Below, piece by piece: positions 2,409-17,913 of a DNA stretch of 20,903 bases (positions are counted from its first letter, which is position 1; the number at the start of each line of letters is the position of its first letter). A program made the position numbers and the translations under genes. The stretch is from a virus. The notes beneath the pieces were generated by a model. The model searched no databases. It was not told the DNA's origin and saw nothing but the letters and a program-made list of their open reading frames with translations. The stretch lies in the IMG/VR virus record IMGVR_UViG_3300042565_001895, positions 1-20,903 of that record, one strand, 5' to 3'.

Positions 2409-2603
2409 ATGTTTGACAAAGAAAAAGTAAAACAAATTGCCCTCTCATACCTTCGTGCTGCTGCAGCATCTGCAGTTGCGCTATATACGGCAGGACAACG
2501 TGAGCCAAAGGTATTGGCAGCAGCATTCATTGCTGGCCTAGTAGGACCTATTTTAAAGGCACTAGACAAGTCAGCACCAGAGTTCGGACGCACAGAGAAG
2601 TAG
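2409..2603 (+). CDS. Holin-like small membrane protein downstream of endolysin
   Basis: A 64-residue protein with a strong AAGGAG (2398-2403) ahead of ATG 2409, nine bases after the endolysin stop. A basic amphipathic start (MFDKEKVKQIALSYLR) leads into a hydrophobic segment (AAAASAVALYTAG, about 17-29). After a short polar turn (QREPK) a second segment follows (VLAAAFIAGLVGPILKAL, about 35-52), then a charged tail. The pattern SYLRAAAA, a two-helix core and a terminal charged tail resembles small proteins that commonly follow actinophage endolysins and are called holins. It is the last gene before a strong terminator. Confidence 0.75.
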   Translation: MFDKEKVKQIALSYLRAAAASAVALYTAGQREPKVLAAAFIAGLVGPILKALDKSAPEFGRTEK

Positions 2604-9316: not shown

Positions 9317-9492
9317 TAATCACACCCATCTATCTCTGTCGGAGCGGTGGCTATAGCCCCACACTCATCACATACTTGGTCTAACAAATACATTCCTACT
9401 TGTCTGGTCTCGCTATCCCACATAACTTTTAAGTTCCACATCTTCGAACCACACACACATACAAATGCTGGCTCACCTCGTAAGTCAAACAT
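9316..9492 (-). CDS. Zinc-ribbon mini-protein
   Basis: A 58-residue protein started at the ATG at 9492-9490, which overlaps the upstream stop as TAATG; a longer GTG start at 9534 lies inside that gene and is not needed. Two metal-binding pairs, VCVCGSK (Cys12, Cys14) and VCDECGA (Cys41, Cys44), frame a beta-rich middle (MWNLKVMWDSETRQVGMYL), consistent with a zinc ribbon. It ends DGCD. Function unknown. Confidence 0.75.
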   Translation of the reverse strand: MFDLRGEPAFVCVCGSKMWNLKVMWDSETRQVGMYLLDQVCDECGAIATAPTEIDGCD

Positions 9493-9956
9493 TAATAATA
9501 ATTGTGTTTGATATGGAACCGCCAAGCAGAACACGGATTTTTATACCTGTGTTGAACATATTTATAGGTATGTAATATCTGAACCATAGGTTCTTTGCTG
9601 GTTTCTTTAAGCCTTTGTCCAATTCCAAATGCACTTGAACCAGATTTGTTCTTTGCCAAATGGTCATACTTCGCCTCTTTAACAAAAATTTTATCAAGAC
9701 AAGCCCACTCTTTATCTTTCCAACCATACCCAACCCAAGCAATCTTTTTAGCCAACGCTTTGTTAGCCTTCTTCTGCTCCATTGTAGCCTTAGTTGGCTC
9801 TGGAGTGGGGGATTTGTGAGGTGAGGTAAGTTTTTGTATGGGAAAAAAGATTAGGGTGATGACTAACAAGGCTATAGCCACCACCCGTTTTCTTATTAAC
9901 TTGCCTTTTTCCTTGACCTTACTCTTCGTCTGTCGTGCTCTGTAAGTCCGCCCCAT
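9492..9956 (-). CDS. Membrane-anchored lytic-transglycosylase-like protein
   Basis: A 154-residue protein. A basic cytoplasmic start (GRTYRARQTKSKVKEKGK) leads to one membrane helix (about 25-41, VVAIALLVITLIFFPI). A Ser/Pro/Thr and Lys-rich linker follows, then a C-terminal wall-hydrolase-like domain (about 80-154): KEWACLDKIFVKEAKYDH, SGSSAFGIGQ, PCSAWRFH. Glu94 is in the position of the catalytic Glu of SLT-type transglycosylases, and Cys86 with Cys142 could form a disulphide. The ATG lies 61 bases inside whiB with only a weak AAAGG. Placed in the leftward operon, not the lysis cassette, it is more likely a cell-envelope modifier than the main lysin. Confidence 0.75.
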   Translation of the reverse strand: MGRTYRARQTKSKVKEKGKLIRKRVVAIALLVITLIFFPIQKLTSPHKSPTPEPTKATMEQKKANKALAKKIAWVGYGWKDKEWACLDKIFVKEAKYDHLAKNKSGSSAFGIGQRLKETSKEPMVQILHTYKYVQHRYKNPCSAWRFHIKHNYY

Positions 9957-10147
9957 ATGCCAAACCTTTCATTATTCTGTAGCGAATACTCAAGGCATTC
10001 TACCCTGACGCTACAGGCTTTACATATCTGCTTAACATAGGCCACTTTATCTCCCTTGTTAGGGAAAAATATCTCAGGGTCTACCTCAGCACACAACGCC
10101 TTCTTAGTCCACTCAGGTGGCATTAACACCTCAGCAATTATACTCAT
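9896..10147 (-). CDS. whiB: WhiB-family Fe-S transcriptional regulator
   Basis: An 83-residue protein with all WhiB hallmarks: W13...LCAEVDPEIFFP with Cys19, then ICKACSVRVEC with Cys42, Cys45 and Cys51 (spacing C-x22-C-x2-C-x5-C), the FGIWGGLTE turn (62-70) and a basic RRRVRSRKK tail for DNA contact. WhiB proteins are confined to actinobacteria and their phages and bind a 4Fe-4S cluster and the main sigma factor. Phage copies such as that of mycobacteriophage TM4 are known to interfere with host WhiB2-dependent division and to give superinfection exclusion. GGAGGAC lies just before the ATG, and its start overlaps a tiny upstream gene as ATGA. Confidence 0.95.
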   Translation of the reverse strand: MSIIAEVLMPPEWTKKALCAEVDPEIFFPNKGDKVAYVKQICKACSVRVECLEYSLQNNERFGIWGGLTEHDRRRVRSRKKAS

Positions 10148-11459: not shown

Positions 11460-11611
11460 TTATCACACCCACAAATCTCGATAGTGTTAAAGCAAAATCC
11501 CGTGCCCGTCCACCAGATACGGGTTGCGATTAGATAAAAGATAACAAGCACGCCAAGCGCAAACAACGCCCGCACTATTGTGCGTGTGCGGTAATAGGTA
11601 GGAGATTTCAT
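11456..11611 (-). CDS. Single-helix membrane protein with Cys-containing C-terminus
   Basis: A 51-residue protein started at the ATG at 11611-11609, which overlaps the upstream stop as TAATG and has GGAGG six to eight bases before. A basic start (KSPTYYRTRTIVR) precedes one membrane helix (about 14-30, ALFALGVLVIFYLIATR). After it comes WWTGTGFCFNTIEICGCDK with three cysteines, predicted outside by the positive-inside rule. No family recognised. Confidence 0.65.
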   Translation of the reverse strand: MKSPTYYRTRTIVRALFALGVLVIFYLIATRIWWTGTGFCFNTIEICGCDK

Positions 11612-12057
11612 TATGCCTCCACCAATTCGTCTTGATTTGTATTTTGAAATGCTTGGTCTACTACTGCGTCCCATACCATACGCTTTGCCACGAATAAATA
11701 AAGGCTCTGCAAAGTTGTAAGTTTTGGTTCTATATCTGACGCTAACTCTGCCACCCCTTCGTCAATTTCATTACTAGCCCATAGGCTCAAGGCTTGCACC
11801 TCGTCATTTATGTTTTTGTAATAGGTTTCACATTGCCCGTTTGCATACTCGTGCCCGTAATCTCTAAGGTCATCTATGCTGTAATCCTCGTTGGCATTAA
11901 CATAACCTTGGACATACATTGCGGTATCCTTGATTTCATCTAACCACACGCTACCCCCTGCAATATCTGGCAACAGGTTAAAGATGTCGTAAGTTTCTCC
12001 GCCTTTAATTTTCTCAAGCGTAGCCAATAACTCCACGCCCTTTACTTTATTTTCCAT
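11611..12057 (-). CDS. Hypothetical acidic helical protein
   Basis: A 148-residue protein with GACGGGAGAC about ten bases before the ATG. It is strongly acidic and mainly helical: KGVELLATLEKIKGG, DIFNLLPDIAGG, DEIKDTAMYVQGYVNAN, SIDDLRDYGHEYANGQ, LSLWASNEIDEGVAELA and a long C-terminal helix LYLFVAKRMVWDAVVDQAF. The high negative charge recalls phage DNA-mimic or anti-restriction proteins, but no family motif confirms this. Confidence 0.7.
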   Translation of the reverse strand: MENKVKGVELLATLEKIKGGETYDIFNLLPDIAGGSVWLDEIKDTAMYVQGYVNANEDYSIDDLRDYGHEYANGQCETYYKNINDEVQALSLWASNEIDEGVAELASDIEPKLTTLQSLYLFVAKRMVWDAVVDQAFQNTNQDELVEA

Positions 12058-12097
12058 TTTGCTAGTCTCCCGTCTAGTCTTGCAAGGTTAGGCATTC

Positions 12098-12149
12098 GCC
12101 TTACCCCGTGCCCTATGGTGTCTTGCTCACCGTGCCCCCGTCAAGGGTT
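12098..12149 (-). repeat. Structured element, copy C
   Basis: On the + strand: GCCTTACC (12098-12105), GTGCCC (12108-12113), hairpin GGTG-TCTTGCT-CACC (12117-12131), GTGCCC (12132-12137), then GGGTTA. The second GTGCCC starts exactly 24 bases after the first, as in copy A. It fills most of the gene-free gap 12058-12176 between leftward genes and would be transcribed as its complement. The rest of the gap holds only the next gene's ribosome-binding site. Confidence 0.6.
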
Positions 12150-12176
12150 AGGGCTTTGTTTCTTATAACAATTTCG

Positions 12177-12335
12177 TTATTTATCCCGCCACCTTCTCCA
12201 AATCTTAAGCCCCGTAATTACAAGCAGGCCAAGGATTAGAGTGCGCCAAGGAATATAAACATCTCCGAAATACCCTTGAACTACCAAGCCATAATCGTCT
12301 AACGAAATGGTGAATAAGTTCTTTAAGTCAATCAC
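12177..12335 (-). CDS. Small membrane protein with C-terminal helix
   Basis: A 52-residue protein started at GTG 12335-12333, overlapping the upstream stop as GTGA with GGTGGGAG just before. An N-terminal beta-like part (LFTISLDDYGLVVQGYFG) leads to a membrane helix (about 32-46, TLILGLLVITGLKIW) and a basic end RRWRDK. A longer ATG start at 12368 would lie inside the upstream gene and has no ribosome-binding site. Function unknown. Confidence 0.6.
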   Translation of the reverse strand: MIDLKNLFTISLDDYGLVVQGYFGDVYIPWRTLILGLLVITGLKIWRRWRDK

Positions 12336-12451
12336 GCTCCCACCTCGCAATCGTGTCCATAAGCCCATTCTTGGGCGTCTAACTCTTGGGAGAGGTCAAA
12401 CAATCTCCCACATTCCACGCATATGGTTAGCGGTCTTTCTTTGGTCTTCAT
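12332..12451 (-). CDS. CxxC mini-protein
   Basis: A 39-residue protein with GACAGGGG (complement of 12457-12464) before the ATG at 12451-12449, and a GTGA overlap with the next gene. ICVECGRLFDLSQELDAQEWAYGHDC is zinc-finger-like (Cys11, Cys14, then His34, Cys36), the pattern of a small treble-clef or C2HC finger. Function unknown. Confidence 0.65.
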   Translation of the reverse strand: MKTKERPLTICVECGRLFDLSQELDAQEWAYGHDCEVGA

Positions 12452-12479
12452 TCTTTCCCCTGTCTTTCTTTTAAGGTCT

Positions 12480-12557
12480 GCGGGTGTCTCCCGCCTTACC
12501 TTGTGCCCCGCTCAGGTCTTGAGCCTGTGCCCTCTGGTTAAGGAGGCGGGGCGGTGT
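12480..12557 (-). repeat. Structured element, copy A
   Basis: On the + strand: GCCTTACC (12493-12500), GTGCCC (12503-12508), hairpin AGG-TCTTGAG-CCT (12514-12526, also GCTCA/TGAGC as alternative), GTGCCC (12527-12532), GGTTAAGG, and a GC-rich GGCGGGGCGGTGT end (12545-12557). CCTTACC can pair with GGTTAAGG to close the element. A second small hairpin, CGGG/CCCG, lies at 12481-12493. It occupies most of the gene-free 12452-12559 gap upstream of the gene at 12332-12451. Confidence 0.65.
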
Positions 12558-12559
12558 TG

Positions 12560-12733
12560 CTAGTTTTCTTCCGTCTCCGTCCATATTTCGGAGGCTTGTG
12601 CACCTATATCTGCCTCAATTAAGCCCCATTCAATTAGCACGCTTATAGCGTTATCGAAATCCTTAAAGCCTTGCATATTGTCCGCCAAGTCCATCATTAG
12701 GTGATGGCTCTGGTTGTCGGGATTGTATGTCAT
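12560..12733 (-). CDS. Hypothetical small acidic protein
   Basis: A 57-residue protein started at the ATG at 12733-12731, which overlaps the upstream stop as TAATG. Sequence TYNPDNQSHHLMMDLADN, then GFKDFDNAISVLIEWGLI and an acidic end SEIWTETEEN. It is probably two or three helices. No family recognised; the gene pair with its upstream neighbour is translationally coupled. Confidence 0.6.
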   Translation of the reverse strand: MTYNPDNQSHHLMMDLADNMQGFKDFDNAISVLIEWGLIEADIGAQASEIWTETEEN

Positions 12734-12897
12734 TAGTTCACCCCGCAAGCGGTTAGAAACATTTCCCGATTAAAGCGGGGGTTAGTGGTTTCTAACTTGT
12801 CCGCCATATTGTGGGAGAGTTGGAATTTTAACTCCCCATTGCCGTGCCAACTTGTAGCGATAACCTCTGCTATAAGTTCAAAGTCTTTGCGTGTCAT
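12733..12897 (-). CDS. Small conserved actinophage-type protein (MTRK...NPRF motif)
   Basis: A 54-residue protein with GACAGGAG (complement of 12904-12911) before the ATG at 12897-12895. It begins MTRKDFELIAEVIA and ends LETTNPRFNREMFLTACGV, a start and end pattern common to many short proteins of actinobacterial phages and plasmids (MTRK.FE.IA... through ...NP.FDR..F..ACG). The family's function is not known to me. Helical throughout. Confidence 0.75.
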   Translation of the reverse strand: MTRKDFELIAEVIATSWHGNGELKFQLSHNMADKLETTNPRFNREMFLTACGVN

Positions 12898-12936
12898 TTC
12901 TTGCTCCTGTCTTCTTGCAAATCCTGAGCGAGTATT

Positions 12937-13009
12937 TCCCGCCTAGGTAATTGCGTGCCCCCTGTCGGTCTTGAGCCGTCGCCGTCGTTAGCGGGCGGGG
13001 GGCGGTGTT
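12937..13009 (-). repeat. Structured element, copy B
   Basis: On the + strand: CCCGCCTAGGTAA (12939-12951), GTGCCC (12955-12960), hairpin CGG-TCTTGAG-CCG (12966-12978), TCGCCG where the other copies have GTGCCC (12979-12984, again exactly 24 bases after the first), GTTAGCGGGCGGG. CCCGCC and GGCGGG ends can close the element. It shares the GGGGCGGTGTT-type end with copy A. It fills the 12898-13010 gap. Confidence 0.6.
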
Positions 13010-13010
13010 T

Positions 13011-13241
13011 CTATAATTCGCCGTTAATGGCCTTAATTACGCCGTCCATATTGTCGGTGAATATCTTCACACTGTCGAGATTGATACCGCTTGAATAATC
13101 GCACTCCTTGTTAAGGAAGAAAGTCTCGACACCGTAATGCTCCGTCAAGATAAAGCGGGCTAGTGGCTCGTAGTCTGTGTTTCCTGTTGCCATTACATAC
13201 ATTTTTGAAACTGTCTTGATGATGTCTTTTTGTGTCTTCAT
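13011..13241 (-). CDS. Hypothetical protein, first gene of the leftward operon
   Basis: A 76-residue protein with GACAGGAG (complement of 13248-13255) before the ATG at 13241-13239. Sequence KTQKDIIKTVSKMYVMATG, then YEPLARFILTEHYGVETFF and a polar end DSVKIFTDNMDGVIKAI: a small alpha/beta protein. No family recognised. As promoter-proximal gene of the leftward operon it would be among the first proteins made from it. Confidence 0.65.
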   Translation of the reverse strand: MKTQKDIIKTVSKMYVMATGNTDYEPLARFILTEHYGVETFFLNKECDYSSGINLDSVKIFTDNMDGVIKAINGEL

Positions 13242-13289
13242 TTGGTGCTCCTGTCCTGCCCTTGCGTGGTTGCTTGGGCTAGTGAATGA

Positions 13290-13318
13290 AGAATGACACG
13301 GGGCGGGGTGGGTGTCAA
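13290..13318 (-). promoter_or_regulatory. Candidate leftward promoter for the accessory operon
   Basis: Read leftward, a perfect TTGACA (complement of 13313-13318) is followed after 17 bases by CATTCT (complement of 13290-13295), a weak -10 box. The spacer is very GC-rich (CCCACCCCGCCCCGTG). It ends about 50 bases before the first leftward gene. The phased repeats at 13335-13377 lie directly upstream of the -35 box, a usual place for an activator or repressor. Confidence 0.4.
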
Positions 13319-13334
13319 GCGATTATGGGCATTA

Positions 13335-13377
13335 TTTGATAACGATTTGATAACGATTACCTGAGGATTACCTGAGA
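13335..13377. repeat. Two tandem 11-bp phased repeats
   Basis: TTTGATAACGA occurs twice in tandem (13335-13345 and 13346-13356), followed by ATTACCTGAGG (13356-13366) and ATTACCTGAGA (13367-13377). Both pairs have a period of 11 bases, close to one helical turn, so identical faces are presented. This suits cooperative protein binding, as an operator or origin iteron. Confidence 0.7.
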
Positions 13378-13382
13378 GGATT

Positions 13383-13413
13383 GTCTCAATATGTGAGACC
13401 TTGTGCCCTCTGG
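13383..13413. repeat. Hairpin with sequence shared with structured element copy A
   Basis: GTCTCA-ATATG-TGAGAC (13383-13399) is a perfect six-base-pair hairpin. It runs into CCTTGTGCCC (13399-13408) and TGTGCCCTCTGG (13402-13413), both found exactly in copy A (12499-12508 and 12526-12537). It may be a degenerate fourth copy ahead of the leftward operon. Confidence 0.5.
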
Positions 13414-13449
13414 ATTATTGATTAAACCTTTTCTAATTCCATTTATAAC

Positions 13450-13474
13450 GGGGGGATAAGTGCAGGGGGGATAG
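13450..13474. repeat. Direct repeat of GGGGGGATA
   Basis: GGGGGGATA occurs at 13450 and again at 13465, exactly 15 bases apart, in an otherwise AT-rich stretch. A CCCCCC tract flanked by ATA lies at 13669-13674 in the opposite sense. Meaning unknown. The stretch 13414-13540 otherwise holds no gene or clear signal. Confidence 0.4.
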
Positions 13475-13540
13475 ACGCACGCCATAAGTATTTATTTATT
13501 ACCCCAAGAAAAGTCTTTAAAACCTAGCCAACTGCTAACG

Positions 13541-13584
13541 GTCAGGTCATAAGCAGGGGTCAGGTGTATGTCTAACCGTCAGGT
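13541..13584. repeat. Three GTCAGGT direct repeats (iteron-like)
   Basis: GTCAGGT occurs at 13541-13547, 13559-13565 and 13578-13584, spaced 18 and 19 bases. Two are preceded by AAC(C/G). An AT-rich stretch (13610-13670) follows on the right. Short regularly spaced repeats next to AT-rich DNA are seen at origins and at multi-site operators. No initiator gene is identified here. Confidence 0.45.
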
Positions 13585-13682
13585 AGAGGTCTAGAGTTTT
13601 GACCCACGGTTATTTAATCTGCGTGCAATACTATACTGTACTCTTCCTCCAAAATTTTCTGTTATATACCCCCCAGAATATA

Positions 13683-13860
13683 GGCACAAAGTGCCACAAA
13701 TAGGACATTTTTAAAAATATATACGAACCTAGTGTTCGGTTTTAGCCCTTCGAACAGGTTATCTTATATAGTAGTTAAAACTACAGAGTTCAAACGAACT
13801 CGTCGTTTTGGCTCCTCGTTCGTTGAATATAATATATAAATATTTAACCTACGAAGTAGG
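13683..13860 (+). promoter_or_regulatory. Inverted-repeat cluster and promoter upstream of terminase
   Basis: Perfect hairpins occur in close succession: GGCAC-AAA-GTGCC (13683-13695), CGAAC-CTAGT-GTTCG (13724-13738), GTAGTT-AA-AACTAC (13771-13784), GAGTTC-AAAC-GAACTC (13786-13801), CCTAC-GAA-GTAGG (13848-13860). CGAAC or GTTCG occurs at least five times in 13724-13822. A perfect TATAAT lies at 13828-13833 without a clear -35, so a rightward late promoter needing a phage factor is plausible. Being next to terminase, this stretch could also hold the packaging start. 13242-13920 contains no gene. Confidence 0.5.
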
Positions 13861-13920
13861 AGACGACCACAGTTATGCCGTTTAACGGGTAGCGTTATAT
13901 GACCGATATTAGGGACGTAA

Positions 13921-15789
13921 ATGGGACGCAAGCCAGGGATACAAAATATACCAAAGGGCGAGGCCCAAGAAAAAGTTTTAATACAACTGCAACAAGGTTC
14001 TACCATCACAGCCGCTATGGCATCTGTTGGTCGTAATGATGTTACCTTCCGCCAATGGTCGATGCAAGACCCCGCCTTTAAGGAGAGAGCCGACAAAGCC
14101 CGCCTTATGGGTAAGGGAGTTATCGCTGACTTAGGGGATTTGAAATCTATAGCCTTTCCTGACTTCTCAGAGCAGTTCTTAGATACTAAGTTGTTTGAAC
14201 ATCACCTTGATTGGATTGACCTGATTGAGGGTAGGACTCCTAGGTGGCTACATCCATCTATGACCTACGAGCCAGGTGCTGACAACCGTGTGTTGATTAA
14301 CGTACCCCCTGAACACGCTAAGTCTACAACCGTAACCATAAATTACGTTTTATATAAAATTGTTACCAACCCTAACTCAAGAGTAATTATTGTCTCTAAG
14401 ACTCAGGGTATGGCTAGAAAATTTTTAGGTGCGATTAAGACTCGTCTTAGCCACCCCGCTTTTATTAAACTCCAGACCGCCTTCGGTCCTAATGGAGGAT
14501 ATAAGGCTGACGCTACTCAATGGTCAGCAGATATGATTTACCTAGGCACTGGAAGAGATTCTGGTGAGAAGGACCCTACGGTACAGGCTTTAGGATTTGG
14601 GTCTCAGATTTACGGTGCTCGTGCCGACCTGATTATCCTAGATGACGTTGTGATGAACTCAAATGCCCACGAATGGGAAAAGCAAATTGAATGGCTTCAA
14701 AAAGAAGTTATCACACGTTTGGGGCGACACGGAAAACTGCTAGTAGTAGGAACCCGTGTCTCCTCAATTGATTTATATAAAATGATTAGAGATGGCGGAC
14801 AGTGGACTGGAGGCAAGTCTCCTTTCACATACTTCGCTCAACCAGCAGTTTTAGAATTTGATGAAAAGCCAGCCAATTGGAAAACCTTATGGCCTTGGAC
14901 TGATAGACCAGAGGGCGAAAAAGATGAAGCAAATGAGGAAGGGCTGTTCCCTAAGTGGGACGGACCCTCGCTATTTACCAGACGCTCTGAAGTGGCGCCA
15001 TCTGTCTGGGCTATGGTCTACCAACAAGAAGATGTCACAGAGAATTCAATCTTTTCTCCAACCTGTGTCGCAGGTAGCGTTAATGGAATGCGAAAAAGAG
15101 GACCTCTCAAGCCTGGAGTCCCAGGACATCCGAAGCATTGTGAATCTACATATACAGTTATTGGCCTCGACCCAGCAATGGCGGGAGCAACAGGAGCGGT
15201 AGTTTGTTCTTATAACCGTGCTGATGGAAAGATTTATATTTTAGATTGTATTAATATGACAGACCCTACACCAGCCAAGATTCAAAACTTGATTGAAGAG
15301 TGGGTCCCTAAATACAAGCCACAAGAAATACGAATTGAAATTAATGCCCACCAGAAGGCTTACGCTCTGGATGATAATTTAAGAAACTACTTAGCCCAAT
15401 ACGGTTGCCAACTTAACTCACACTTTACTGGCAAGAATAAGTGGGATGTCGGATTCGGTGTAGCATCTATGGCAAGCCTTTTTGGCTCAACCAGAGATGG
15501 TAGATTTCAAGATAACAATATAATAGAATTACCAAGCAATGAAGGTTCTGAAGGTCTTAAGACTTTAGTTCAAGAACTTATTACTTGGAAGCCTGACACC
15601 AAGAACCCTACTGACTGTGTAATGGCTTTATGGTTTGCGATTATACGCATACGTGAATTAATGCAACAATCAACACGAATTGGGCAATACCAAAATAATC
15701 GATGGGCTACAAGAGCGCAACAGTCAAGACGTGGTTCACTTAATTTAGACGAAGCCTTTGCAGAGCAATGGGCTGGAACTTACAACTAG
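13921..15789 (+). CDS. terL: Terminase large subunit with N-terminal HTH domain
   Basis: A 622-residue packaging motor. Residues 10-60 form an HTH-like domain (AQEKVLIQLQQGSTITAAMA, VGRNDVTFRQWSMQDPAF) of the kind found in small terminases. The ATPase has a variant Walker A VPPEHAKSTT (128-137), followed by VSKTQGMARKFLGAIK, and Walker B DLIILDD (236-242). The nuclease domain has VIGLDPAMAG (Asp417), IRIEINAHQ (Glu473) and NPTDCVMALW (Asp565). It cuts concatemeric DNA and drives it into the prohead through the portal encoded next. AGGGA lies a few bases before ATG 13921. No separate small terminase is seen in the window. Confidence 0.95.
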   Translation: MGRKPGIQNIPKGEAQEKVLIQLQQGSTITAAMASVGRNDVTFRQWSMQDPAFKERADKARLMGKGVIADLGDLKSIAFPDFSEQFLDTKLFEHHLDWIDLIEGRTPRWLHPSMTYEPGADNRVLINVPPEHAKSTTVTINYVLYKIVTNPNSRVIIVSKTQGMARKFLGAIKTRLSHPAFIKLQTAFGPNGGYKADATQWSADMIYLGTGRDSGEKDPTVQALGFGSQIYGARADLIILDDVVMNSNAHEWEKQIEWLQKEVITRLGRHGKLLVVGTRVSSIDLYKMIRDGGQWTGGKSPFTYFAQPAVLEFDEKPANWKTLWPWTDRPEGEKDEANEEGLFPKWDGPSLFTRRSEVAPSVWAMVYQQEDVTENSIFSPTCVAGSVNGMRKRGPLKPGVPGHPKHCESTYTVIGLDPAMAGATGAVVCSYNRADGKIYILDCINMTDPTPAKIQNLIEEWVPKYKPQEIRIEINAHQKAYALDDNLRNYLAQYGCQLNSHFTGKNKWDVGFGVASMASLFGSTRDGRFQDNNIIELPSNEGSEGLKTLVQELITWKPDTKNPTDCVMALWFAIIRIRELMQQSTRIGQYQNNRWATRAQQSRRGSLNLDEAFAEQWAGTYN

Positions 15790-16134: not shown

Positions 16135-17913
16135 ATGGCATTAACAATTGAACAGATATCAGCACGGGTTCAATCCCTGCGTTATCGTAATAGCGAGAGA
16201 GATGCTCGCAACTTAGATGTTCTTGCTGTGCGTAAAGGAAAAATTGCTGAAGTTTATCCTGATTTTTTTCCAGATGGCGTAGATGCTAATGTCGTTGCAA
16301 ATTTTATTGATGTTGTTGCCAGGGACCTTTCAGAGGTTATGGCTCCTCTCCCAGCAGTCAACTGCTCGGCGGCTAATGCGGTTAATGACCGTGCTCGTTC
16401 TTTTGCCGATAAGCGTACTCGTATTGCTAGCAATTATTTCCAACACTCTGATTTATCTGTTCAGATGTATTCGGGAGCGGACTGGTATATAACATATGGA
16501 TTTATTCCATTCGTAATTGAATTAGATGATGATGCAAAAATGCCTCGCATTCGTATTGAAAATCCAATTGGCTCATACCCAGAGTTTGACCGATATGGTC
16601 GTTGCGTAGCATTTGCTAAAAGATATACATTGACATTAGGCGAACTGGTAACTCAATTCCCAGAGTATGATTCCACAATCCTTGGACAAGATGGATACAA
16701 ACAAGATTTAAATGGTCAAGTAGAAATGATTCGTTATTATGATAAAGACCAATCAGTTGTTTACTTACCAGCAAAAGATAATTTAATTCTATCACGGGCC
16801 AAGAATCCTTTTGGTAAGATGATGGTAGTTGTAGCACGTAAACCATCTATTGATAGCGAACTACGTGGACAATTTGATGACGTACTTGGAATTCAGTTAC
16901 TTCGTAATCGTTTTGCTTTACTTGCAATGGAGGCTGCAGAGAAATCTGTCCAAGCACCTATTGTTCTTCCACAAGATGTACAAGAACTACAGTTGGGTGG
17001 AGATGCGGTTATCCGTACTGCCAACCCAGCAGGTGTCCGTCGTGTAGAACTTACACTGCCGCAAGGCGCATTTACAGAACAAACATTACTTAACCAAGAA
17101 CTTAGAGTTGGTGCTCGTTATCCAGAATCACGTACTGGTAACATTGACGCATCTATCGTTACTGGTCAAGGTGTACAGGCTCTTATGGGAGCATTTGACA
17201 CTCAAGTTAAATCAGCCCAAGCAATCTTTGCAGCAGCACTTCGTGACGTAATTCGTTTATGTTTTGAAATTGATGAAATAATTTTTCCAGAAGAAAAAAC
17301 AATCCGTGGTGTTGATTCTGGTTCACCATATGAAATTACCTATAAACCAACTAAAGACATCAAGGGTGATTATTCAGCCGATGTCCGTTACGGAATGCTT
17401 GCTGGTCTTAACCCAGCCCAAGGTCTTATCTTTATGTTGCAAGCACTTGGTGGTGGATTAATCTCTAGAGATATGGCTATGCGTGAATTGCCATTTACAG
17501 TTAACGTAACACAAGAACTCGAAAAGATTGAAATTGAAAATATGAGAACATCTTTACTTGGTTCTCTAACAGCATTAAGTCAAGCAATTCCTCAGATGGT
17601 TGCAGGTGGACAAGATGCATCTGGTATAGTAAATAAAATTGCTGCGGTTATCAAGGCTCGTCAAAAGGGTCAAGCATTAGAAGATGCAATTGAGGCCACA
17701 TTCGCTCCGCAGCAACCAGTTCCTCCTGCTGGAGTTTCTACATCTATGGTTGAGCAAACGTCCCCTGCTCCCTCTGGTGCTCCAGTAGGAGGCGCTCTTC
17801 CACCTGGACAAGGCGGAGAAATGGTTCCACAACAGGCTCCAGATATTCAAACAATTCTTTCAAGTTTAACCGCAAGCGGAAAAGGTAATGCACGAGTAGT
17901 AACTAGAAGTTAA
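16135..17913 (+). CDS. Portal protein
   Basis: A 592-residue protein with TTAGGA before ATG 16135. Its length, place after the terminase and composition fit a phage portal. It starts with a helical clip region (QISARVQSLRYRNSERDARN) and has VDANVVANFIDVVARDLSE (about 49-67), YITYGFIPFVIELDD, then a beta-rich wing (PRIRIENPIGSYPEFDRYG). In the C-terminal third, helical crown sequence (LNPAQGLIFMLQALGGG) is followed by a Pro/Gln/Gly-rich tail after about residue 530. The GTGQGVQALMG-like motif VTGQGVQALMGAFDTQV (about 343-359) is typical of portals of this group. It forms the ring through which DNA enters the capsid. Confidence 0.88.
   Translation: MALTIEQISARVQSLRYRNSERDARNLDVLAVRKGKIAEVYPDFFPDGVDANVVANFIDVVARDLSEVMAPLPAVNCSAANAVNDRARSFADKRTRIASNYFQHSDLSVQMYSGADWYITYGFIPFVIELDDDAKMPRIRIENPIGSYPEFDRYGRCVAFAKRYTLTLGELVTQFPEYDSTILGQDGYKQDLNGQVEMIRYYDKDQSVVYLPAKDNLILSRAKNPFGKMMVVVARKPSIDSELRGQFDDVLGIQLLRNRFALLAMEAAEKSVQAPIVLPQDVQELQLGGDAVIRTANPAGVRRVELTLPQGAFTEQTLLNQELRVGARYPESRTGNIDASIVTGQGVQALMGAFDTQVKSAQAIFAAALRDVIRLCFEIDEIIFPEEKTIRGVDSGSPYEITYKPTKDIKGDYSADVRYGMLAGLNPAQGLIFMLQALGGGLISRDMAMRELPFTVNVTQELEKIEIENMRTSLLGSLTALSQAIPQMVAGGQDASGIVNKIAAVIKARQKGQALEDAIEATFAPQQPVPPAGVSTSMVEQTSPAPSGAPVGGALPPGQGGEMVPQQAPDIQTILSSLTASGKGNARVVTRS

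Follow-up and report, generated by a model that had tools for sequence, protein, structure and literature searches.

In mitochondrial transcripts tRNAs act as punctuation between genes, and in phage T7 RNase III sites are found between the early genes. Among actinophages, the early terminators of phiC31 are reportedly hairpins that lie in gaps and do without poly-U. SAS/ESAS of Cluster K mycobacteriophages are described as a 13-bp sequence (GGGATAGGAGCCC) and 17-bp inverted repeats adjoining the start codon (PMC3203893), and PMC4351075 describes 17-bp dyad repeats in Cluster O mycobacteriophages with one invariant 7-3-7 inverted repeat, about one third of them inside genes and with no covarying stems. 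The repeated element described here shares with SAS/ESAS a multi-copy conserved sequence near the starts of a subset of actinophage genes, and with the Cluster O repeats the presence of many copies per actinophage genome, many of them intergenic. As is said of the phiC31 terminators, it places hairpins in the gaps of an actinophage early region. It is like the T7 sites in being a repeated structured site between early phage genes, but differs in its approximately 11-12 stacked layers, its conserved loop and junction and its fold. It is like mitochondrial punctuation in placing tRNA-shaped units between genes of one transcript, but the phage units would be mimics and not tRNAs, and their cutting is inferred.

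The stretch of DNA analysed (the window) comprises an entire IMG/VR virus record (20,903 bases). Its products include a WhiB protein (Pfam Whib, E 3e-23), a CHAP-domain protein, a terminase (Terminase_6C) and, by a weak match only, a portal protein, with further ORFs for a DnaB-like helicase, a primase, a RusA-like resolvase and a sigma-factor-like protein. Comparison with 50,697 phage records using megablast gave two matches, Planktophila phages LanE43AprF5 and LanE43AprE7, whose hosts are 'Ca. Planktophila' of the order Nanopelagicales (PMC10202952). As these are its two matches, the window is probably an actinophage of the Planktophila-phage group. The end of the WhiB gene (9896-10147) overlaps the next ORF (9492-9956) of a leftward operon. 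Ahead of the first gene of this operon, a TTGACA at 13313-13318 on the minus strand, which is absent from the list of the consensus promoter scan, suggests a promoter for the operon.

Three gaps of the leftward operon were each found to hold one copy of the element (W1 to W3, Table 1). On the minus strand, each copy is predicted to fold in the order of a closing stem P1 enclosing hairpins P2 and P3, an unpaired A-C, a further hairpin P4, an RBS and a start codon. The ORF that ends before W1 may have its true start further inside.

Table 1. Predicted element copies and neighbouring genes in the leftward operon of the window, in the direction of transcription
Feature	Position	Strand	Details
First leftward gene	13011..13241	-	76 aa, without a phrogs match; stop ends 7 nt ahead of P1 of W3
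Copy W3	12955..13003	-	R1 53.1 bits, E 5.3e-7; minimum-energy folds; P1 GCCCCC 13003-12998 / GGGGGC 12962-12957; P2 hairpin about 12994-12982; P3 hairpin 12978-12966, loop CUCAAGA; unpaired A-C 12956-12955
W3 P4 hairpin	12917..12954	-	Folds; starts directly 3' of A-C
Gene after W3	12733..12897	-	54 aa, MTRKDFELIAEVI..; phrog_19432, unknown function
ORF overlapping end of preceding gene	12560..12748	-	Stop ends 7 nt before P1 of W2
Copy W2	12503..12552	-	R1 50.9 bits, E 1.4e-6; minimum-energy folds; P1 GCCCCGC 12552-12546 / GCGGGGC 12511-12505; P2 12544-12530; P3 12527-12513, loop CUCAAGA; A-C 12504-12503
W2 P4 hairpin	12473..12502	-	Folds; AAGGU..GCGGG..CCCGC..ACCUU
Gene after W2	12332..12451	-	39 aa, MKTKERPLTICVECG..
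ORF	12177..12368	-	63 aa; stop ends 22 nt before P1 of W1
Copy W1	12108..12154	-	R1 26.4 bits, E 0.086; minimum-energy folds; P1 GCCCUA 12154-12149 / UAGGGC 12115-12110; P2 12147-12136; P3 12131-12117, loop AGCAAGA; A-C 12109-12108
W1 P4 hairpin	12083..12108	-	Folds; first pair takes up C74
Gene after W1	11611..12057	-	148 aa; no Pfam or phrogs match

The first-pass annotation had described these gaps as sharing two GTGCCC boxes 24 bases apart, and these were located at 12108/12132, 12503/12527 and 12955/12979 (the last reading GTCGCC), with a TCTTG loop in all three gaps. Its inner stems (AGG/CCT, CGG/CCG and GGTG/CACC) were correctly drawn and correspond to P3. The layout had been placed on the plus strand, whereas the RNA lies on the minus strand, that of the leftward genes; the plus-strand boxes correspond, as reverse complements, to the 3' strand of P1 with the A-C (GGGGCAC) and the 3' strand of P2 with the junction (GGGCAC). 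The outer arms proposed to close the element had to be reassigned, as GGTAAGGCGGG is the 5' arm of the separate hairpin P4 in minimum-energy folds, and the conserved closing stem is GCCCCNN/NNGGGGC. The statement that no T-run terminator is involved agrees with a scan of 11900-13950, where none of six terminator-like sites fell inside the three gaps. P4, the stop-codon spacing and the tRNA-like layout were features beyond that earlier view.

The single-sequence folding energies of the window copies are only moderately low (z of -2.1, -2.5 and -2.1), and four of seven copies from relatives gave z between -0.7 and -1.2; the case for the fold therefore rests on comparison. Related loci were taken as the best 80 of 592 confirmed terminase matches, and a sequence pattern added 13 stretches, a part of which are coding sequence that fits the pattern by chance. 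Model R1 was built from six copies on five other contigs, first recognised by eye, with the window and locus L071 withheld. MAFFT alignments A1, A2 and A4 were rejected for misplacing P1 or P4, and alignment A5 with a hand-drawn structure was adopted and refined through R1. One seed copy (L083) is 48/50 identical to W3, so that the score of W3 is not independent; no near-copy of W1 or W2 was seen in the seed alignment.

Searching the window and 89 loci (1.08 Mb, both strands) with R1 gave 98 matches at E<=10, every one on the minus strand, with E values of 5e-7 for W3, 1e-6 for W2 and 0.09 for W1, and a score of 39.6 bits for the withheld copy of L071. The presence of the element in the window beyond chance was confirmed by comparison, as R1, built from other contigs, scores all three window copies (bit scores in Table 1). 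Matches were found in 44 of the 80 terminase loci (the best 80 of 592), many of the remaining loci ending near the terminase. The proposal of the first-pass annotation to build a covariance model and search relatives was thereby carried out, and further copies with compensated stems were found.

Among the 98 matches (73 distinct), 93.6% of cells pair and 212 cells are double-changed, against 55 in shuffled and 15-29 in slid versions; in a larger sample of 153 matches from 88 chosen sources, 150 of them aligned, the 130 distinct copies gave 93.1% paired cells and 408 double-changed cells, against 111.6 in shuffled and 39-84 in slid versions. Each alignment had been fitted to the structure, a bias in its favour, and cells count sequences and not events. 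The excess of 408 double-changed cells over about 112 in shuffles indicates that pairing is kept by compensation. G-U pairing is also used, with 45 U-G cells at one P2 pair, for example. A hand-written script descriptor found 78 minus-strand sites and no plus-strand site in the same best 80 of 592 loci. An RNA structure between gene units, one of the options first suggested for the gaps, is strongly supported by the R1 matches, the covariation and these one-strand sites, and on such comparative grounds it is practically certain that the structured RNA itself is real.

Across the 130 distinct copies, the predicted element is a three-way-junction RNA made of P1 (usually 7 bp, with a G1-C72 pair), the variable hairpin P2 and the hairpin P3. 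The 5' strand of P1 occupies 7 nt of seven model columns in 103 copies and 6 nt in 27, and starts with G in 125, C in 128 and C in 126; the first pair is G-C in 117 and G-U in 8. G1 is preceded by A or C in 123/130, and as N-1 could pair with N73 in only 2/130, the end of P1 is sharp. J1/2 measures 2 nt in 106/130 and C42 after P2 is kept in 123/130. P3 has 3-4 bp (the fourth pair being non-standard in 70/130) and a 7-nt loop, which is UUCACGA in 61/130, followed in order by CUCAAGA, UUCAAGA, CUCACGA, UUCACAA, UGCGAGA and others. P3 and the 3' strand of P1 are separated by at most 1 nt, and P1 is followed by A73 (125/130) and C74 (130/130). Position 75 is C in 8/130, a departure from the RCC(A) of RNase P substrates, and CCA is missing in most copies. 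The loop fits UUCRA in 11/130 and position 58 is C in 93/130, so the U54-A58 pair of a T-loop is usually missing. No conserved complementary partner for a pseudoknot of the P3 loop with the flanks was seen by eye.

A 48-kb record with five copies carries head genes related to those of Streptomyces Camvirus phages, and a sister element was identified in the leftward early gaps of phages Joe and phiScoe55. In its predicted fold, a 5-bp P1 is combined with a side loop of 11 nt that has a conserved GGC, a 6-bp T arm and an A-C, then a hairpin. The T-arm loop is UUCGAG followed by U or C, with UUCGAG in 16/16 aligned copies. In this alignment (16 copies, 15 distinct, from two related phages) all cells pair and 38 are double-changed, against 10.9 in shuffles; pair types are less telling (15 against 12.5, a value reached by 43 of 500 shuffles). 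Model R3, built from Joe and phiScoe55, gave 46 matches at E<=2e-4, all on the minus strand: 8 in Joe, 11 in phiScoe55, 8 in Endor1, 9 in Amela and 10 in phiCAM, the last three searched in their right 11-12 kb only. In 25 sources, seven further R3 matches had E of 0.005 to 0.87. Among 45 sister contexts, 20 have a stop codon that ends between -6 and -8, and in 40 the next hairpin begins 0-3 nt after the A-C, its stability being above shuffles in only 76%.

The two types are bridged by several sites. A copy of an 89-kb phage with loop UUCGAGU scores with both model R2 (E 0.004) and R3 (E 0.005), a Micromonospora prophage site with loop UCCGAUU scores with R3 (E 0.1), descriptor sites of locus L069 have loops UUCGAGU, UUCGCUA and UUCAACC, and one phiCAM sister copy has a weak R2 score (E 0.38). 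P1 and P3 together form approximately 11-12 stacked layers in both types, counting a mismatched or unpaired position, divided as 7 plus 3-4 in the main family and 5 plus 6 in the sister; in tRNA, the acceptor and T arm form 12 layers. P3 is read as a T-arm mimic, though the main-family loop usually has no A58, because of this common stack length, the UUC in both types, A73-C74 and the same genomic place. Like tRNA and tRNA-like structures (mascRNA-menRNA RF01684, the tRNA domain of tmRNA and viral TLS), the element would set an acceptor-like stem on a T-arm-like hairpin, with G1-C72, A73 and C74, and the sister resembles tRNA further in its canonical T-loop and the GG of its side loop. Unlike those structures, the element has no anticodon arm or CCA, its main loop is mostly UUCACGA, and it occurs in multiple copies inside an mRNA.

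No Rfam 15 family matched the window at gathering, and the region 11950-13500, at E<=5, gave three matches only, each far under the cutoff; the first-pass annotation knew of no family with this layout. In six further loci at E<=1, the matches were two to miRNAs, far below cutoff, and a tRNA beside the terminase of L056. This tRNA (RF00005, 47.4 bits, 2472-2543, plus strand) lies just before the terminase of an element-bearing phage. The element is not detected as a tRNA gene by ARAGORN or RF00005, and has no anticodon arm. In phage Joe, the only Rfam match at E<=1 was mascRNA at a sister copy (26.2 bits, E 0.36, cutoff 42.5). The SAS 13-mer gave one match with two mismatches in the window, at 16340, which is chance level. 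No prior description of such an element was found in the titles and abstract starts of the literature searched, which did not cover phiC31-terminator or phiCAM actinophage papers; the phiJoe paper (PMC5311408) uses neither intergenic nor stem-loop, terminator or tRNA, and the terms sought for such an element are likewise absent from PMC10656467.

The gene context was compiled for 186 distinct main-family contexts, in which two probable false positives (L102:6077 and L186:9483) were kept. An upstream stop codon on the same strand ends 6-9 nt before G1 in 105/186, compared to 9/1110 random positions, and 10-25 nt before G1 in 52/186, often with a small hairpin between. Many of the remaining 29 are closely preceded by the end of a short ORF or show a small hairpin (P0) beside the stop; two seem to be false matches. 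P4 begins within 2 nt after C74 in 168/186, and the 45 bases after C74 fold more stably than mononucleotide shuffles in 89% of the 186. The next start codon lies 27-61 nt past the element in 158 of 187 contexts, and the downstream genes differ between copies. A loose promoter scan flagged 15/186 contexts; by inspection, a TTGACA and a -10-like hexamer directly follow the element at L066, L062, L051, L077, L123, L146, L149 and L139, the other flagged sites lying in an RBS or coding sequence or being weak. The element seems to be tied to the end of the upstream gene, given the stop spacing, the promoter-like sites after copies and the first gene of the window operon, ahead of which the R1 search of the window matched no P1-P3 element.

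Several further features were observed near copies. Palindromes of the form TGTGA-N6-TCACA, which we take to be CRP/GlxR-like sites, occur at most 40 nt upstream of 14/186 copies and at most 60 nt downstream of 21/186 (e.g. L146, L139, L126 and L019), with 66 in 1.1 Mb of related loci and none after one shuffle; some of these may also act as RNA hairpins close to the stop. Two divergent minus-strand copies (L069:3964 and L044:7672) have a side hairpin with TATACTATGGTATA-like sequence and a TTGAC just before the element, and a promoter may overlap them. Copies L015:8563, L017:8589 and L061:350 have additional downstream sequence (..CGCAAACGCTAGACA..) in common, ahead of a next called start at a distance of 76-121 nt.

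A pattern of P3 plus P1 occurred in at least 120 stretches of viral contigs. Nine pattern loci were left out, their contigs having been searched before, and 77 of the 109 searched had an R1 match at E<=1 among the matches listed; the other pattern loci look like chance matches of the pattern. Among 28 genome loci from a related pattern, strong R1 matches were found in Salinispora pacifica CNR114 (four) and Micromonospora sp. CB01531 (two), both of which resemble prophages, having terminase and integrase genes close by, and one weak match in a Cellulomonas locus (E 0.83). A whole-record search with R2 at E<=0.1 matched 19 of 26 records, with 12 copies in the 89-kb virus record (all on the minus strand), 5 in the 48-kb record, 3 in LanE43AprE7, 1 in LanE43AprF5, 4 in Salinispora and 3 in Micromonospora; a Franconibacter match (E 0.099) was taken as chance. 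A cellular survey with R2 at E<=0.001 matched 1 of 396 genomes in the phylum of Salinispora, this being the control genome itself, and 0 of 200 in that of Franconibacter, a weak negative given the strict filters and the 15-30 candidates scored in the genomes listed. The element seems to be rare in cellular genomes.

R1 matched nothing in seven relatives whose sequence extends 4.7 kb or more to the left of the terminase. R2, run on 16 loci with matches in 3, or the descriptor gave copies or likely copies in L025, L040, L044 and L069, and no copy was found with R1, R2 or the descriptor in the long window relatives L043, L049 and L050. BLAST against named phages returned chance matches for two element regions, none for L161 and L095 and only short ones for L275 and L279. 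The named Streptomyces phages covered, several in part, were Joe, phiScoe55, Endor1, Amela, phiCAM, Issmi, BartholomewSD, R4 and phiC31, together with TM4 and the two Planktophila phages. R2 gave no match at E<=5 in Joe, phiScoe55, the left 12 kb of Endor1 or phiC31, and one in BartholomewSD (E 0.87). The best R3 matches had E of 0.33 in BartholomewSD, 0.5 in phiC31 (a single match) and 0.87 in R4, with none at E<=1 in Issmi; no match was convincing in phiC31, or in BartholomewSD and R4 (first 50,000 bases each) or Issmi (38000-50643), and bases 1-50000 of the 52797 of TM4 had no R2 or R3 match at E<=1.

The sequence comparisons establish the fold, its strand, a place close behind a stop codon in most copies, a following P4 and a sister type in Camvirus. 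Our tentative proposal, given a chance somewhat short of even, is that the element is a mimic of the tRNA acceptor and T arm that punctuates the early operon, probably as a processing or 3'-end site. P1 would mimic the acceptor stem, with the T-arm-like P3 stacked on its 3' strand, P2 as a D-arm-like side hairpin and A73-C74 after P1. The polycistronic leftward mRNA would be punctuated at each element, the mimic being recognised and cut by tRNA-type or other endonucleases, for which the candidates are RNase P before G1 and/or RNase Z or an actinobacterial RNase E around A73-C74. Each gene unit would obtain its own mRNA, the upstream one ending just past its stop codon, either bare or capped at its 3' end by the mimic, and the downstream one starting with P4 as a 5' cap. 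Such a model would account for the abrupt end of the stem, the lack of pairing between N-1 and N73, the placing of A-C between two helices, the proximity of the stop and P4.

The likeness to tRNA is based on G1 (125/130), A73 (125/130), C74 (130/130), the unpaired N-1/N73, the T-loop of the sister, the bridging sites and the mascRNA match. RNase P normally favours RCCA, and RNase Z as a rule cleaves after N73 where CCA is absent. A73-C74, with its C in 130/130, also fits the site sequence of actinobacterial RNase E: the mycobacterial enzyme cuts before C at single-stranded positions with a weak bias to a preceding purine, its in vitro sites being unexplained by predicted structure (PMC10641625), and RNase P is described in PMC11143913 as cutting model substrates made of acceptor, T-stem and T-loop and some mRNAs. 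Speaking against cutting are the mostly non-canonical loop, the missing RCCA, the patchy distribution, the failure of ARAGORN and the Rfam tRNA model to see the element, and the RNase E sites that structure does not explain.

The fixed stop spacing also fits a role in translation termination or reinitiation, in which P1 would stand at the front of a ribosome whose A site holds the stop codon and control release, recycling or transfer to the next RBS. We consider this reading unlikely: it is favoured by the stop position in both families (6-9 nt before G1 in 105/186, -6 to -8 in 20/45 for the sister), but the next start usually lies 27-61 nt on, behind P4 (158/187), eight copies are directly followed by a promoter-like site, and the stop-P1 gap widens to 10-25 nt, often with a small hairpin, in 52/186. 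The tie to the upstream stop, the two stacked stable helices and the copies ahead of promoter-like sites would also suit a 3'-end element that is not cut, namely a U-less terminator or attenuator, such as are reported for phiC31, or a 3' stabiliser setting downstream transcription. A terminator, however, needs no conserved loop, junction bases or A-C, the folded gaps of phiC31 itself hold other hairpins and, in one gap, a tRNA, and twelve strong terminators on one strand of one phage would lose transcription stepwise, making this explanation improbable.

The invariant bases, the constant loop on variable stems and the up to 12 copies per record are what would be expected of a riboswitch, or of a site bound in RNA by a protein of phage or host, that controls several early genes jointly; this too has a low probability, as no regulator was identified, the downstream genes differ, and many copies per genome are unusual for a riboswitch. 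The protein-bound DNA operator raised in the first-pass annotation, or a recombination site with an incidental RNA fold, would explain multiple intergenic copies in mosaic genomes, some adjoined by CRP-like palindromes. It is rendered very improbable by the strict strand (98/98 with R1, 78 against 0 with the descriptor), the G-U pairs, the compensatory changes and the stem sequences that differ from copy to copy.

The element constitutes a strongly covarying RNA family that reaches 12 copies in one record and has no Rfam match, present in isolated phages of 'Ca. Planktophila', which are abundant freshwater actinobacteria, with a sister type in Streptomyces phages. The Camvirus phages of Streptomyces coelicolor with sister copies allow an easy direct test. 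If the mimic serves in processing, it would reveal how these phages control the levels of their many small early genes and would offer a portable intergenic part for actinobacterial operons. A broader reading, possible but rather doubtful, is that these copies belong to an undescribed, widespread superfamily of tRNA-top-half mimics in actinobacterial phage early operons, which host tRNA-processing enzymes would excise to leave separately capped gene units. If true, this would be a phage counterpart of mitochondrial tRNA punctuation, made of mimics instead of tRNAs.
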